Notes under the pieces: model-generated
Told to the model about the DNA's origin: nothing
Databases searched by the model: none
Seen by the model: the letters and a program-made list of their open reading frames with translations, nothing else
Part shown: piece after piece, positions 21,544 to 28,099 of the stretch
How positions within the stretch are numbered: the stretch's first letter is position 1
How the letters are laid out: each line of letters starts with the position of its first letter
NCBI GenBank assembly: GCA_015689735.1
Contig: WVSP01000001.1
Span: 1,166,001-1,230,000 of the forward strand
From: Rhodobacterales bacterium LSUCC0031
GTDB taxonomy: Bacteria > Pseudomonadota > Alphaproteobacteria > Rhodobacterales > Rhodobacteraceae
Length of the DNA: 64,000 nt
Reading direction: 5' to 3'
Program-made: the position numbers and the translations under genes

Positions 21544-22926
21544 TCAGGCTGCGCTGAGCGGGGCCAACGTAACCTTGTCACGGCCACGGGATTTCGCGCC
21601 GTAAAGTGCAGCATCCGCATGGGCGATCAAGCTTTGTGCAGTGTCCCCCCCTGCGGGCGTAGAGAGCGCAAGCCCGATGCTGATCGTCACCGACAGCGGC
21701 GGTGTGTCGCCACGCAAGATGAACGCGGTTTCGCCGATGGTCGCGCGCAGCCGTTCGGCGCAATCAAGCGCCATGGAGCTGTCACCCTCGGGCAGAGCCA
21801 CGAGAAACTCCTCGCCCCCGATGCGCGCGATCAGGTCCGAGCTACGCAGCTGCGCGCGGAGCCGTCGCGCGACAAGGTTGAGCACTCGGTCACCTACCGG
21901 ATGGCCGAAACGGTCGTTGATTTGCTTGAAATAGTCGATGTCGAGCAACATCACCGCAACGCCGCGCCCGGTCTGTGCGATCATCCGCTCAAGCTGGAAT
22001 ATCGCGTAGCGGCGGTTATACAGGCCCGTAAGGCTATCGGTCACCGCCATTTCAAGACCTGCTTCAACCGAAGCGCGCAGCCGGTCGGCTTGGCGTTTGC
22101 GGTCAAGCTGGGTGCGGATGCGCAGTGCCAATTCCTGTGCATCGAAGCTGTCATAAAGAATGTCATGCGCGCCCAAATCAAGCGCAATGGCCGCGCGTTC
22201 GCTGTCACCTTCCGGCAAGATCATCACGCTGGCCGCATTGCGCGTGCCGGGCCGCGATCGCAGATCGGAGAGGAGCCGCAACCCCTCATTGCGATGGGTC
22301 AGATCGGCGGCGATCACGAAAACATCGGGCGCGTCACCCTCGTCATGGCCGAAACCGGTCAAGGCTGCGTCACGCGGCAGCACCGACACCTCGCCGCCCA
22401 AACGGTCATCAAGGGCGGTCTTCCACAAGACCGCGCCCTTTGGCCCCGGCGCGATCAAAGCGATGCGCCCGGCCTTTTGGGGGGCGGTGAAATGGGCCAC
22501 AGCCTCGGCGAAACCAAGCGCCGACGCGCCGCGCTTGCGCAATTCACGCGCCGTGTCGCGGGCGCGCAAAAGCGAACGAACCCGCGCCAAGAGCGTCATC
22601 TCATCAACGGGCTTGGTCAGGAAATCATCTGCCCCCGCCTCGAGCCCCGCCATCTTGTTGTCGCGATCGGCGATCGCAGTGATCAAGATGATCGGGATAT
22701 CGGCGGTCTCGGGGTCGGTTTTCAGCTGCCTGCAAACATCAAGGCCCGACATGTCGGGCATGACCACATCGAGCAAGATGAGATCTGGCTGTGTCTCACG
22801 CGCGGCAATCAGGGCTTTGGCCCCGCAATCGGCCTGATCAACGGCATAGCAGGCTGAGGCCAGCTTGACCTTCATCACGATGCGGTTCGTGGCCACATCG
22901 TCAACGACTAGAATTCGCCCTGTCAT
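21544..22926 (-). CDS. pleD: PleD-type response regulator diguanylate cyclase
   Basis: A 460-residue protein with REC-REC-GGDEF order, as in PleD. REC1 is intact (acidic pair at 9-10, phospho-acceptor D53, K105). REC2 (about 145-270) has lost the acidic pocket and is probably an adaptor. The cyclase motif is GGEEF near residue 370, with an RSSD inhibitory site five residues before it, so it should make c-di-GMP under product inhibition. No divK is adjacent. It converges on the metal-sensor gene four bases away and is divergent from the DUF3572 gene. Confidence 0.9.
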   Translation of the reverse strand: MTGRILVVDDVATNRIVMKVKLASACYAVDQADCGAKALIAARETQPDLILLDVVMPDMSGLDVCRQLKTDPETADIPIILITAIADRDNKMAGLEAGADDFLTKPVDEMTLLARVRSLLRARDTARELRKRGASALGFAEAVAHFTAPQKAGRIALIAPGPKGAVLWKTALDDRLGGEVSVLPRDAALTGFGHDEGDAPDVFVIAADLTHRNEGLRLLSDLRSRPGTRNAASVMILPEGDSERAAIALDLGAHDILYDSFDAQELALRIRTQLDRKRQADRLRASVEAGLEMAVTDSLTGLYNRRYAIFQLERMIAQTGRGVAVMLLDIDYFKQINDRFGHPVGDRVLNLVARRLRAQLRSSDLIARIGGEEFLVALPEGDSSMALDCAERLRATIGETAFILRGDTPPLSVTISIGLALSTPAGGDTAQSLIAHADAALYGAKSRGRDKVTLAPLSAA

Positions 22927-24597: not shown

Positions 24598-24722
24598 GCG
24601 CGGCCCAGTGTGCGGATTGTGAAAATGCGACCGCCCATGTCGGAGATGGGCAATCTGTTACTCCTCCGATGCGGTCATTTGAGCCCCAATCCGACACAAA
24701 ACGCCCCGGAAAGATAGTTCGC

Positions 24723-26282
24723 ATGACCGATGATACCACGACCCGTCGCCGCCGTTCGGGGGGCCGCGCGGCCAACACCGCCCGCAGCAGCGCGCACGCG
24801 ATCGAGCAGACGCCATGGCGCGTGCCGCGCAACATCGACCGCCCGACCGAGCCCATGCCCCATGAGGGCGTGCTGGCGATCCATGATGGTGCGATGCGGG
24901 TACTGTCCGATATCGGGGTCGAGTTCCTCAATGAGGATGCGCTCGCCCATCTCAAGCGTGCTGGCTGCAAGATCGAGGGGCAGACCGTCCGCTTCGACCG
25001 CCATTTCGTTGAAGAGATGGTGGCCAAGGCGCCGCCCTCCTTCACGCTGACGCCGCGCAACCCGGAAAAACGCATCATCATCGGGGATGGTCATATCGTG
25101 TTCGGCAATGTCTCGTCGCCGCCCAATGCCTGGGATCTGGCACGCGGCAAGCGGCCCGGCGATCTGGAAACCTATCGCGAATTCATCAAGCTGACGCAGT
25201 ATTTCAACTGTATCCATTTCGCGGGTGGCTACCCGGTGGAACCCGTCGATGTTCATGCGGGCGTGCGGCATCTCGATTGCCTGTTCGACAAGCTGACGCT
25301 GACCGACAAGGTGGTGCATGCCTATTCGCTTGGCCCCGAGCGGGTCGAGGATGTGATGGAGATGGTACGCATCGCGGGCGGGCTGTCCCATGCCGAGTTC
25401 GACGCCACCCCGCGCATGTACACCAACATCAATTCGGTCAGCCCGCTCAAGCATGACTGGCCGATGCTCGACGGTGCCATGCGGCACGCCAAGCGGGGCC
25501 AGCCTGTGGTGGTGACACCCTTCACCTTGGCAGGTGCCATGGCGCCGGTGACGCTGTCAGGGGCCGTGATGCTCTCGATCGTCGAGGCCTTGGCCGCGAT
25601 TGCGCTGCTCCAATGGATCGCGCCGGGCTGCCCGGTGGCGATCGGTACCTTCACCTCGAATGTTGACATGAAATCGGGCGCGCCTGCTTTCGGCACGCCG
25701 GAATATATCCGCGCCACCCAGATGACCGGCCAGATGGCGCGGTTTTATGGCCTGCCGCTGCGTTCATCGGGGGTATGCGCGGCCAATGTCCCGGACGGCC
25801 AATCGATGTGGGAGACGATGAATTCGCTGTGGGCCGCGGTCCAGTCAGGCACCAACATGGTCTATCACGCGGCCGGCTGGCTCGAGGGCGGTCTGATCGC
25901 CAGCCCCGAGAAATTCGTGATGGATTGCGAAGTCTTGCAGCAATTCCAACGCTATATGGAGCCGCAGATCCTTGGCACCGCCGAGGCCGATCTTGCCATT
26001 GCCGCCATTGCCGAGGTTGGCCCCGGCGGGCATTACTTCGGCTGCCAACACACCCAAGACCGCTATCAGGAGGCATTTTATAGCCCCTTCTTGTCGGATT
26101 GGCGCAATTTCGAGGCGTGGCAGAACGCGGGTAGCCTTTGGAGTGCCGAACGCGCCCATGGTGTTTACAAGCGCATCTTGGACGAATTCGAAGCCCCACC
26201 AATGGATCCTGCCATCCGCGAAGAGCTGACCGCTTTCGTCGCCCGGCGCAAAGCCGAGGGCGGCGCGCCGACCGATTTCTAA
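24723..26282 (+). CDS. MttB-superfamily methyltransferase without pyrrolysine
   Basis: A 519-residue protein of the trimethylamine methyltransferase (MttB) superfamily. The frame is open throughout with no in-frame TAG, so it lacks the pyrrolysine of true MttB. Such proteins demethylate quaternary amines such as glycine betaine or proline betaine and pass the methyl group to a corrinoid protein. The first 35 residues are Arg-rich and look disordered. No corrinoid protein or reductive activase is adjacent. The hairpin terminator at 26299 follows. Confidence 0.85.
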   Translation: MTDDTTTRRRRSGGRAANTARSSAHAIEQTPWRVPRNIDRPTEPMPHEGVLAIHDGAMRVLSDIGVEFLNEDALAHLKRAGCKIEGQTVRFDRHFVEEMVAKAPPSFTLTPRNPEKRIIIGDGHIVFGNVSSPPNAWDLARGKRPGDLETYREFIKLTQYFNCIHFAGGYPVEPVDVHAGVRHLDCLFDKLTLTDKVVHAYSLGPERVEDVMEMVRIAGGLSHAEFDATPRMYTNINSVSPLKHDWPMLDGAMRHAKRGQPVVVTPFTLAGAMAPVTLSGAVMLSIVEALAAIALLQWIAPGCPVAIGTFTSNVDMKSGAPAFGTPEYIRATQMTGQMARFYGLPLRSSGVCAANVPDGQSMWETMNSLWAAVQSGTNMVYHAAGWLEGGLIASPEKFVMDCEVLQQFQRYMEPQILGTAEADLAIAAIAEVGPGGHYFGCQHTQDRYQEAFYSPFLSDWRNFEAWQNAGSLWSAERAHGVYKRILDEFEAPPMDPAIREELTAFVARRKAEGGAPTDF

Positions 26283-26411: not shown

Positions 26412-27002
26412 ATGCATGGCATGGTCAACCGCGCCCTTCAGGGCTTTTTGACGACGACCTATGGCGACGCAGTCTGGGCCGAGGTGCGCCGCCAAGCGGG
26501 GCTTCCCTTCGATGACTTCGAAGCGATGCTCAGCTATCCCGATGCGATGACGACAGCCTGTTTCGGGGCCGCTGCCCATGTCTTGGGCAAAGATCATGCC
26601 ACGGTGTTGGAGGATTTCGGCATCTGGCTTGTGACCGATCATCATCTTGAACCTGTGCGGCGGCTGTTGCGATTCTCGGGGGCGCGTTTCCACGATTTTC
26701 TACACGCGCTCGAGGATCTCGCCGAACGCGGGCGGCTGGTCTTGCCCAACCTTGATTTGCCGCGCATCACTGTGGCGCAGGGGGATGAAGGGCGCTTTGT
26801 GATCGACGCGGTGTGGCCGGTGCCGGGGGCAGGCGCGATCTTGATGGGGTGTCTACGCGCGATGGCCGATGATTACGGCACATTGGCCTTTGTCGGGCTT
26901 GGGCGCGCGGCCGATGACGCAAGCGAGCGGTTGGAAGTTCAGCTGTTCGATGCGGCCTTTACCAAGGGCCGACGCTTTGAGCTTGGGCAGGTGCGCGCAT
27001 GA
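26412..27002 (+). CDS. H-NOX (HNOB) protein lacking the usual heme ligand
   Basis: A 196-residue protein that opens with MHGMVNRALQGFL, the classical H-NOX start, and keeps the length and helix pattern of the family, whose members bind heme and sense NO or O2. Aligned by eye to Shewanella H-NOX, the proximal heme histidine position is A104 (EDLAERG), and the Y-x-S-x-R heme-propionate motif is replaced by V134-W-P-V-P138. All three hallmark contacts are therefore absent. The stop overlaps the start of the cyclase gene (ATGA). It may be a heme-free sensor or a structural partner of that enzyme. Confidence 0.8.
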   Translation: MHGMVNRALQGFLTTTYGDAVWAEVRRQAGLPFDDFEAMLSYPDAMTTACFGAAAHVLGKDHATVLEDFGIWLVTDHHLEPVRRLLRFSGARFHDFLHALEDLAERGRLVLPNLDLPRITVAQGDEGRFVIDAVWPVPGAGAILMGCLRAMADDYGTLAFVGLGRAADDASERLEVQLFDAAFTKGRRFELGQVRA

Positions 27003-28099
27003 ATGTCTCGAAGACGCTTTTGCAGTGTGGTGACGCGCTGGATCGTTTATTGCCGATGCATCTGTGGATTGGCGTGGATGCGAAGGTCGTCCGCGCAGGC
27101 CCCACTTTGGCGAAGATGGTAGGGCGGGGCGATCTTCGGGGGCAGCCGGCCTTTGGGCTGATCACGATCCGCCACCCCGCCCCGGTTGCCGGTGTCGCAG
27201 CGCTTTGCGCCTTGTCGGGACAGCGCCTTGGGCTGGTTCTGACGGATTCCCCGGACATGCCCTTGCGCGCGGTGGCCGTCGCCTTGCCCGATGCGGCGGG
27301 GGTTATACTTGATTTGTCGCTGGGCCTGTCGTTTGCACGGGCGGTTGCGGCCTTTGGGCTGACGCTGCGTGATTTCTCGCCTTGCGACCAAACGATCGAG
27401 CTCTTGTATCTGCACGAGGCCAACAGCGCGACAACCACTCTGTCACAGCATTTGACCGCGCGGTTGCAACATGCCCGTCTCGAGGCGCAGACGCAGGCCA
27501 TGACCGACCCCCTTACGGGCTTGGCCAATCGCCGCGCGATGGATGCCGAGATCAGCCGCGCCTTGGCCGATCATGCCCATGATTTCGCCCTGTTGCAGAT
27601 CGATCTTGACCTGTTTAAGCGGGTCAATGACAGCCTTGGCCATGCGGCAGGTGACGCCGTGCTTGAGCGGGTCGCCCAAGTGCTGCGCCAACATCTGCGC
27701 TTGGGTGACATGGCCGCCCGAGTGGGTGGCGACGAGTTTCTCGTGTTGATCTACGATTGCTCGGATGACACGGAACTTGGGCGGATCGCCACACGGCTGA
27801 TCGCCGCCTGCGAGGTGCCGATCAGCTATCGTGGTCAATTGTGCCGGATCTCTGCATCGATCGGGATTGCCACCGTTGCACATTCGACGCAACGCCCTGA
27901 TCTTGAGGGGCTAATAGCTGATGCCGATGCGGCGCTTTATGCCGCTAAGCGCGCTGGGCGGGGGCGCTACGCCTTGCATGGCGGCACCACGGTTGTGGAA
28001 TGCTCTGCGGTGCCGATGATGCGTGGGCGGCGGGCCAATGACCCTCCACAGGGCGGGTTTCGACGCCGCCAGGATGACAGGGTGCCGCGCCCCGATTGA
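26999..28099 (+). CDS. HNOBA-GGDEF diguanylate cyclase
   Basis: A 366-residue protein. Residues about 5-140 resemble the HNOBA (H-NOX-associated, PAS-like) domain: LLPMHLWIGVDAKVVRAGP and LDLSLGLSFARAVAAFGLT. A helical linker (about 140-170) leads to a GGDEF domain with intact GGDEF at 243-247 and an RLGD inhibitory site at 234-237. With the coupled H-NOX gene this makes a split version of the HNOB-HNOBA-cyclase layout of soluble guanylate cyclase, but with c-di-GMP as output. To my knowledge an H-NOX/diguanylate cyclase pair is known from Dinoroseobacter shibae. Confidence 0.87.
   Translation: MNVSKTLLQCGDALDRLLPMHLWIGVDAKVVRAGPTLAKMVGRGDLRGQPAFGLITIRHPAPVAGVAALCALSGQRLGLVLTDSPDMPLRAVAVALPDAAGVILDLSLGLSFARAVAAFGLTLRDFSPCDQTIELLYLHEANSATTTLSQHLTARLQHARLEAQTQAMTDPLTGLANRRAMDAEISRALADHAHDFALLQIDLDLFKRVNDSLGHAAGDAVLERVAQVLRQHLRLGDMAARVGGDEFLVLIYDCSDDTELGRIATRLIAACEVPISYRGQLCRISASIGIATVAHSTQRPDLEGLIADADAALYAAKRAGRGRYALHGGTTVVECSAVPMMRGRRANDPPQGGFRRRQDDRVPRPD

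Follow-up and report, generated by a model that had tools for sequence, protein, structure and literature searches.

According to a 2022 review, the proximal histidine is absolutely conserved in H-NOX groups 1-4 (PMC8738867). Group 5 of the same source, seeded on Paracoccus denitrificans, is described as retaining this residue in less than 10% of its members, most of which have proline instead; it lacks conserved cysteines and keeps the glycine hinges, and the authors ask how sensing works. MTTB, HAD and GGDEF appear among the neighbor families abbreviated in a figure legend of the review. For P. denitrificans, Kumar & Spiro reported in 2017 that the H-NOX protein, like that of R. sphaeroides, has no axial histidine and that its gene hnoX overlaps the GGDEF gene dgcA (the Pden_3719/3720 pair). 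Their hnoX mutant underproduced biofilm, a mutant devoid of both cyclases overproduced it, and NO was proposed to stimulate the inhibition of DgcA by H-NOX (PMC5588039). In a 2025 paper on the hnox mutant, direct measurement of c-di-GMP in this species failed because the levels were below detection (PMC12582929).

In Dinoroseobacter shibae, H-NOX is reported on the basis of a direct assay to be a heme NO sensor that inhibits Dgc1 in its NO-bound form (PMC8846402), and it is cited elsewhere as an NO-dependent inhibitor of Dgc1 (PMC7232146). Expression of hnox and dgc1 is reportedly induced in the quorum-sensing program of this organism, and hnox is lowered in CtrA phosphorelay mutants of D. shibae and Phaeobacter inhibens. 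Rupture of the iron-histidine bond is thought to be required for the activation of H-NOX by NO, and the NO-bound H-NOX of Caulobacter leaves its kinase uninhibited (PMC12329717). Binding of NO thus does not yield an active state in all systems. A precedent for heme-independent signaling is the H-NOX of V. cholerae, described as a heme-free redox sensor with a three-cysteine zinc site, whose relatives keep the histidine (PMC7108781). On the effect of mutating the histidine away, no paper naming H103G together with H-NOX was found in the literature searched, and among PDB sequences related to a canonical protein two Shewanella NMR entries were uninformative on this point.

Here we analyze a gene pair in a window of 64,000 nucleotides from Rhodobacterales bacterium LSUCC0031, which is best explained as the H-NOX/DgcA module of Rhodobacterales in its group 5 form. 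A sequence-only reading had placed a pair of genes at 26412-28099, and both reading frames were found as placed. The first, hnoX (26412..27002, + strand), encodes an H-NOX (HNOB) protein of 196 amino acids, recognized by its HNOB match, its alignment to Alr2278 and a family profile. The second (26999..28099, + strand) overlaps it by 4 nt on the same strand and encodes a DgcA-like diguanylate cyclase of 366 amino acids, built of an N-terminal HNOBA-like domain, a linker and a GGDEF domain. As in P. denitrificans, the two genes overlap and the H-NOX has no axial histidine.

An MTTB-family methyltransferase gene (24669..26282, + strand; E 1.9e-219) lies upstream of hnoX, and MTTB, HAD and GGDEF genes are all present within the window. 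Among the loci L002-L081 with at least 2.5 kb of upstream sequence, an MTTB homologue is found in 43 of 74 and a HAD homologue in 45 of 74. We regard the MTTB gene as a common neighbor and do not think that it is part of the pair. Downstream of the cyclase gene lie genes for an ABC1 kinase and a BKACE protein, as well as a TctABC transporter set on the other strand. A response regulator joining a receiver to a GGDEF domain is encoded at 21544-22926 (- strand), about 3.5 kb from hnoX. Genome-wide there are two GGDEF matches, both within the window, namely the H-NOX-linked cyclase and this receiver-GGDEF protein, and one EAL match, which lies elsewhere. Two cyclases, one of them H-NOX-linked, are reported for P. 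denitrificans (PMC5588039) and for D. shibae as well.

That the first gene encodes an H-NOX protein is confirmed by the Pfam alignment: HNOB (PF07700), whose cut-off is 25.5 bits, covers residues 2-154 with E 4.4e-20 and 72.7 bits and is the only Pfam family to match at E <= 1. In a phmmer search of PDB sequences the protein is matched to Nostoc Alr2278 (4iah, 2o09), without gaps over residues 33-120, and Ala104 (codon 26721..26723, + strand) comes to lie opposite the histidine of the Alr2278 segment 'NLDNLHARVGLSFPQL', the proximal heme ligand position of canonical H-NOX proteins. A profile built from 32 family members gives the same register and extends the match through the second half of the protein. 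The sequence-only reading of this position thus holds, and neither alignment places a conserved histidine there. An alternative register with His98 (FLHAL) as the ligand was rejected, as the shift would break the gap-free match and the column carries histidine in only 60 of 108 rows.

The residues of the YxSxR motif clasp the heme propionates in canonical H-NOX proteins. In the same family profile the residues at the Alr2278 motif do not match it, and the alignment of 156 distinct sequences assigns its positions in the window protein to A133-x-W135-x-V137, within codons 133-137 (A-V-W-P-V; 26808..26822, + strand). The motif had been read as absent, which is correct, and as replaced by the string V-W-P-V-P, which lies one residue too far to the right. 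Of the four heme-site residues (H, Y, S, R), not one is thus left in the window protein. The hinge glycines are present as G70 and G146, which we read from the alignment as the probable counterparts of the two-glycine hinge described for H-NOX (PMC8738867); they are identical in 102/102 group 5 and 41/41 canonical rows. The protein contains two cysteines (50 and 147), neither in a conserved cysteine column, unlike the three-cysteine zinc site described for V. cholerae (PMC7108781), and a zinc-cysteine redox model was discarded because of these two cysteines in 196 amino acids and the lack of a conserved cysteine column. While the loss of the ligand and of YxSxR is plain from the alignment, that the protein is free of heme is what its sequence suggests.

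To the canonical proteins and the β1 subunit of sGC the family remains recognizably related, since its profile matches Alr2278 (4iae, E 2.4e-26) and sGC (6jt0, E 1.1e-16), and the window protein shares the glycine hinges and P117 with them, yet it has neither the proximal histidine nor YxSxR. The sequence-only reading had likened the pair to a split animal sGC. This comparison stands for the order of the domains and fails for the output, because the GGDEF domain is encoded by a separate gene, in place of a class III cyclase domain in the same chain.

The family alignment comprises 163 loci with 156 distinct sequences. For the tree and the counts 143 rows were used, 102 of group 5 and 41 canonical, leaving out fragments or odd rows (L055, L077, L080, L081, L129, L130 and L133) as well as short ones (L019, L074-L076, L078 and L079), some of which are shortened by the chosen start; counts over 108 rows add these six short rows to the 102. 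Group 5 rows were selected mostly by similarity to the window protein, with L131, L132 and L134 coming from the class-wide HNOB search, and canonical rows by HNOB match in class-wide and family-wide searches, the latter contributing its best-scoring 30. All counts therefore refer to the distinct sequences of the sample and not to a random draw. In a quick tree without bootstrap, the branch that separates the 102 from the 41 rows has an SH-aLRT value of 96.

Position 104 is histidine in 41/41 canonical rows, a figure that is not unbiased because the HNOB score itself favors histidine. In group 5 it is absent from 96 of the 102 proteins: Pro occurs in 65, Gly in 10, His in 6 (also 6/108), Ala in 5, Ser in 5, Asn in 3, Asp in 2, Arg in 2, and Glu, Tyr, Gln and Lys in one each, making 12 different letters overall. 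The six histidines agree with the figure of less than 10% given in the review (PMC8738867). Compared with the proline that is most common there, the window protein has Ala104 together with Trp135. The motif behaves similarly, with Tyr in 41/41, Ser in 41/41 and Arg in 40/41 canonical rows and with Tyr in 3/102, Ser in 13/102 and Arg in 6/102 group 5 rows. Counted per protein, 77 of the 102 group 5 rows keep none of the four residues, 22 keep one and 3 keep two. The loss of the heme ligand, first described as a feature of one protein, thus turns out to be the common state of its group in Rhodobacterales. On the group tree H104 needs at least five changes. Within group 5, Pro104 occurs without Trp135 in 60/65 rows and a residue other than proline with Trp135 in 31/37. 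The rows with H104 all carry Trp135 (6/6), and the independent pairs or changes are too few to test a link between positions 104 and 135.

A different set of positions is fixed. D68, R87, G90, A152, D153, D154, Y155, G156 and L158 are invariant in 102/102 group 5 rows, R84 and R106 are kept in 101/102 and E67 in 100/102. The densest part of this set is a family signature at codons 150-158 (AMADDYGTL; 26859..26885, + strand), in which A152-G156 and L158 are identical in every group 5 row. At these frozen positions the canonical proteins are variable or mostly have another residue, such as Glu at 106 (31/41) and Phe at 155 (33/41). G70, P117 and G146, on the other hand, are identical in all rows of both kinds. 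These patterns indicate a constraint on fold and hinge that is common to both, and in group 5 a heme site that is free to vary next to a new, partly charged set that is frozen. The frozen residues may make up a surface of contact with the cyclase.

Some Paracoccus homologues are shorter. L074 misses 19 residues of the distal lobe, corresponding to residues 30-48 that the window protein keeps, and L075, L076, L078 and L079 are shortened as judged by match length alone (492-513 nt versus 588); P. denitrificans itself lies outside the named loci. The CtrA site TTAA-N7-TTAA was found upstream of 0/111 distinct group 5 genes (shuffling predicts 0.06), and control by CtrA is therefore not visible by this motif.

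In the cyclase, both functional sites proposed from the sequence are intact, with GGDEF at residues 243-247 and the RLGD I-site at 234-237, and the GGDEF domain is matched at E 1.1e-43 (Pfam). The HNOBA domain (PF07701) reaches 22.5 bits, 0.9 under the cut-off of 23.4, and it is matched at E <= 0.01 by 25 of 32 aligned cyclases, that of the window included. The coupling of a sensor without heme ligand to a GGDEF cyclase with a weakly matching HNOBA domain is supported. All 32 aligned H-NOX family members match HNOB at E <= 1. A cyclase homologue lies directly downstream on the same strand in 116 of 119 group 5 loci (near-copies of one genome included), and every match, starting ahead of residue 60 of the window cyclase, takes in part of its N-terminal domain. 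Among these 116 cyclases, 113 have GG(D/E)EF and an RxxD I-site. The three loci without a downstream cyclase are L066, at a contig end, and L055 and L081, where the hnoX frame is cut short; the latter two, both from Ascidiaceihabitans, may reflect gene loss or an assembly error. Since both the pairing and the substitution recur across the family, they are not due to chance.

Canonical loci match the window cyclase (E <= 1e-3, anywhere in the locus) in 6 of 44 cases, L117, L119, L120, L135, L138 and L143, where the GGDEF part may suffice for the match and adjacency is not implied. L119, L135, L138 and L143 belong to the window's own family and have the histidine and YxSxR, so that in this family the layout may also occur with a heme-bearing H-NOX.

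The window H-NOX is widespread in Rhodobacteraceae. A homologue is found in 287 of 394 sampled family genomes at E <= 0.001, of which at least two (G004 and G294) are matched only by a canonical protein. HNOB itself is matched in 296 of the 394, compared with 18 of 385 genomes in the class-wide sample, five of them from the same family, the window's genome included. The closest relatives come from Roseicyclus-like Rhodobacterales, with a best identity of 82%. Among the HNOB matches listed, 41 score at least 114 bits, one each in 41 genomes, a set not to be equated with the 41 canonical alignment rows, and the next one scores 106. Thirty of these 41 genomes also contain, among the matches listed, one to the window protein at E <= 3e-27. 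The two canonical-only genomes fall short of this level (E 1e-10 and 4e-15), so both kinds of H-NOX seem to coexist in the 30.

The D. shibae protein requires a closer look. Genome G395 belongs to the same genus as the Dinoroseobacter locus L033, and the 6 kb tested on one of its contigs are 100% identical, at the same coordinates, to the D. shibae DFL 12 plasmid NC_009955.1; as other D. shibae strains match too, G395 is D. shibae, either DFL 12 itself or a strain nearly identical to it. The one H-NOX match in this genome, L115, has the sequence 'GLDDLHDRARLAVP' and the proximal histidine, with H, C, W and R at the positions of the histidine and of YxSxR. Being the only H-NOX match in G395, L115 is taken to be the protein assayed in print. 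It falls into the same clade of the tree as the window protein and is one of the six histidine-bearing rows among the 102. The reported NO-responsive heme protein (PMC8846402) thus bears the histidine where the window protein has Ala104, and its behavior towards NO is no guide to the majority without histidine, the window protein included. In the literature searched, no statement of the D. shibae H-NOX as a histidine-bearing exception was found.

How could an H-NOX without the ligand act? We consider it probable, though far from settled, that the window H-NOX works on the cyclase without heme, as a regulatory subunit and probably an inhibitor. Having lost its heme site but kept the fold and the two hinge glycines, the protein would bind the N-terminal, HNOBA-like part of the cyclase whose gene overlaps its own, and would set, most likely lower, the c-di-GMP output. 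Inhibition is suggested by analogy with the genetics of P. denitrificans, where the H-NOX has no histidine, the biofilm phenotypes are known and inhibition of DgcA was proposed (PMC5588039). As NO presumably activates canonical H-NOX proteins by breaking the iron-histidine bond, a protein without this histidine is not switchable that way. Our own idea is that it may be permanently active, as if NO were bound, with its amount as the means of control; alternatively, another signal may switch it. In favor of the heme-independent subunit we count the absence of all four heme residues in the window protein, the freezing of another residue set, the 12 letters at position 104, the pairing in 116/119 loci, the apparent coexistence with canonical proteins in 30 genomes and the low dN/dS. 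The latter lies between 0.066 and 0.212 in 15 close pairs, all without histidine, that were picked by hand and include two with dS above 1, and at 0.15 between the window protein and its nearest relative. From low dN/dS, frozen residues and a free heme site it follows that the protein is under selection for a function independent of the heme ligands. On the other side stand the inhibition of Dgc1 by the NO-bound D. shibae heme protein, although that protein keeps its histidine (PMC8846402), the proposal that NO acts through the Paracoccus H-NOX without histidine (PMC5588039), the at least five changes of H104, which leave some role of the position possible in places, the failed direct measurement of c-di-GMP in P. 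denitrificans (PMC12582929), the uninhibited kinase of Caulobacter (PMC12329717), and the N-terminal His2, which could be another heme ligand.

Another explanation is that the protein continues to bind heme and to respond to NO, either through a different iron ligand such as His2 or with no ligand from the protein at all, and that its NO-bound form inhibits the cyclase as reported for D. shibae. His2 is found in 90 of 108 group 5 rows, where canonical proteins have Lys (33/41) or Tyr (6/41), and may be an alternative ligand or a lineage habit. Fold, P117 and hinge glycines are kept, and a direct assay lists the D. shibae protein as a heme NO sensor (PMC8846402). Nonetheless, that protein keeps H104 and is hence no model for the window, where all three YxSxR residues are lost as well. 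Besides the heme site, the group 5 alignment has no invariant His or Cys column, His2 being the fullest; cysteine reaches at least 40% of the rows only at C133 (49/108), where the window protein has alanine. Moreover, a search for NO sources that covered cytochrome-cd1 nitrite reductase (PF02239) and copper nitrite reductase (TIGR02376) gave no match at E <= 0.001 in the source genome, and neither was there a FIST match, so that NosP was set aside; these absences are tentative because the assembly is 96% complete. We therefore regard retained heme sensing as unlikely.

The emptied pocket might instead bind another small molecule, such as a lipid, a quinone or a quorum signal, and switch through the same hinge. 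The frozen glycines agree with this, and the reported quorum-sensing induction in D. shibae, together with the CtrA phosphorelay effect there and in Phaeobacter inhibens, would be consistent with an input from metabolism or quorum sensing. On the other hand, the heme-site positions are degenerate and not re-fixed on a new consensus, the Paracoccus protein L074 dispenses with 19 distal-lobe residues, and no ligand is known, which makes this reading quite improbable. A functionless, decaying relic is largely refuted and has a very small chance of being true: the lost heme site and the two truncated hnoX frames of one genus (L055 and L081) would suit it, but the dN/dS values, the signature identical in 102/102 rows, the conservation of the pairing in 116 of 119 loci and the deletion phenotype of P. 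denitrificans (PMC5588039) all speak for a working protein.

The observation that started this analysis is correct and of a known but unexplained kind. Loss of the histidine is already in print, in the work of Kumar & Spiro (PMC5588039) and in group 5 of the 2022 review (PMC8738867), with which the window protein shares the missing histidine, the lack of a conserved cysteine and the adjoining GGDEF gene. What is new is that heme-site positions are free to change in a group where another, partly charged set has become fixed, that both kinds of H-NOX apparently coexist in 30 genomes among the matches listed, and that the NO sensor reported for the group is a histidine-bearing exception, with 6 of 102 proteins keeping the histidine.

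In a wider view, one H-NOX clade, found in about seven of ten sampled family genomes, may have turned from a heme NO sensor into a heme-independent subunit of a cyclase, with release of the heme site and fixation of a new, partly charged network (E67, D68, R84, R87, R106, D153 and D154); claims of NO sensing would then rest on the histidine-bearing D. shibae exception. We give this scenario an even chance. The H-NOX proteins of Paracoccus and roseobacters have been modeled as NO sensors acting on c-di-GMP (PMC8846402, PMC7232146, PMC5588039, PMC12582929), and the D. shibae data on NO should not be carried over to the proteins without histidine. Members with and without the histidine offer a natural comparison for the role of H-NOX without heme. 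If most of the latter indeed hold no heme in that way, the input of the module would be an open question in hundreds of genomes. In the source genome only two GGDEF proteins were found, and one of them would be under the control of this module.
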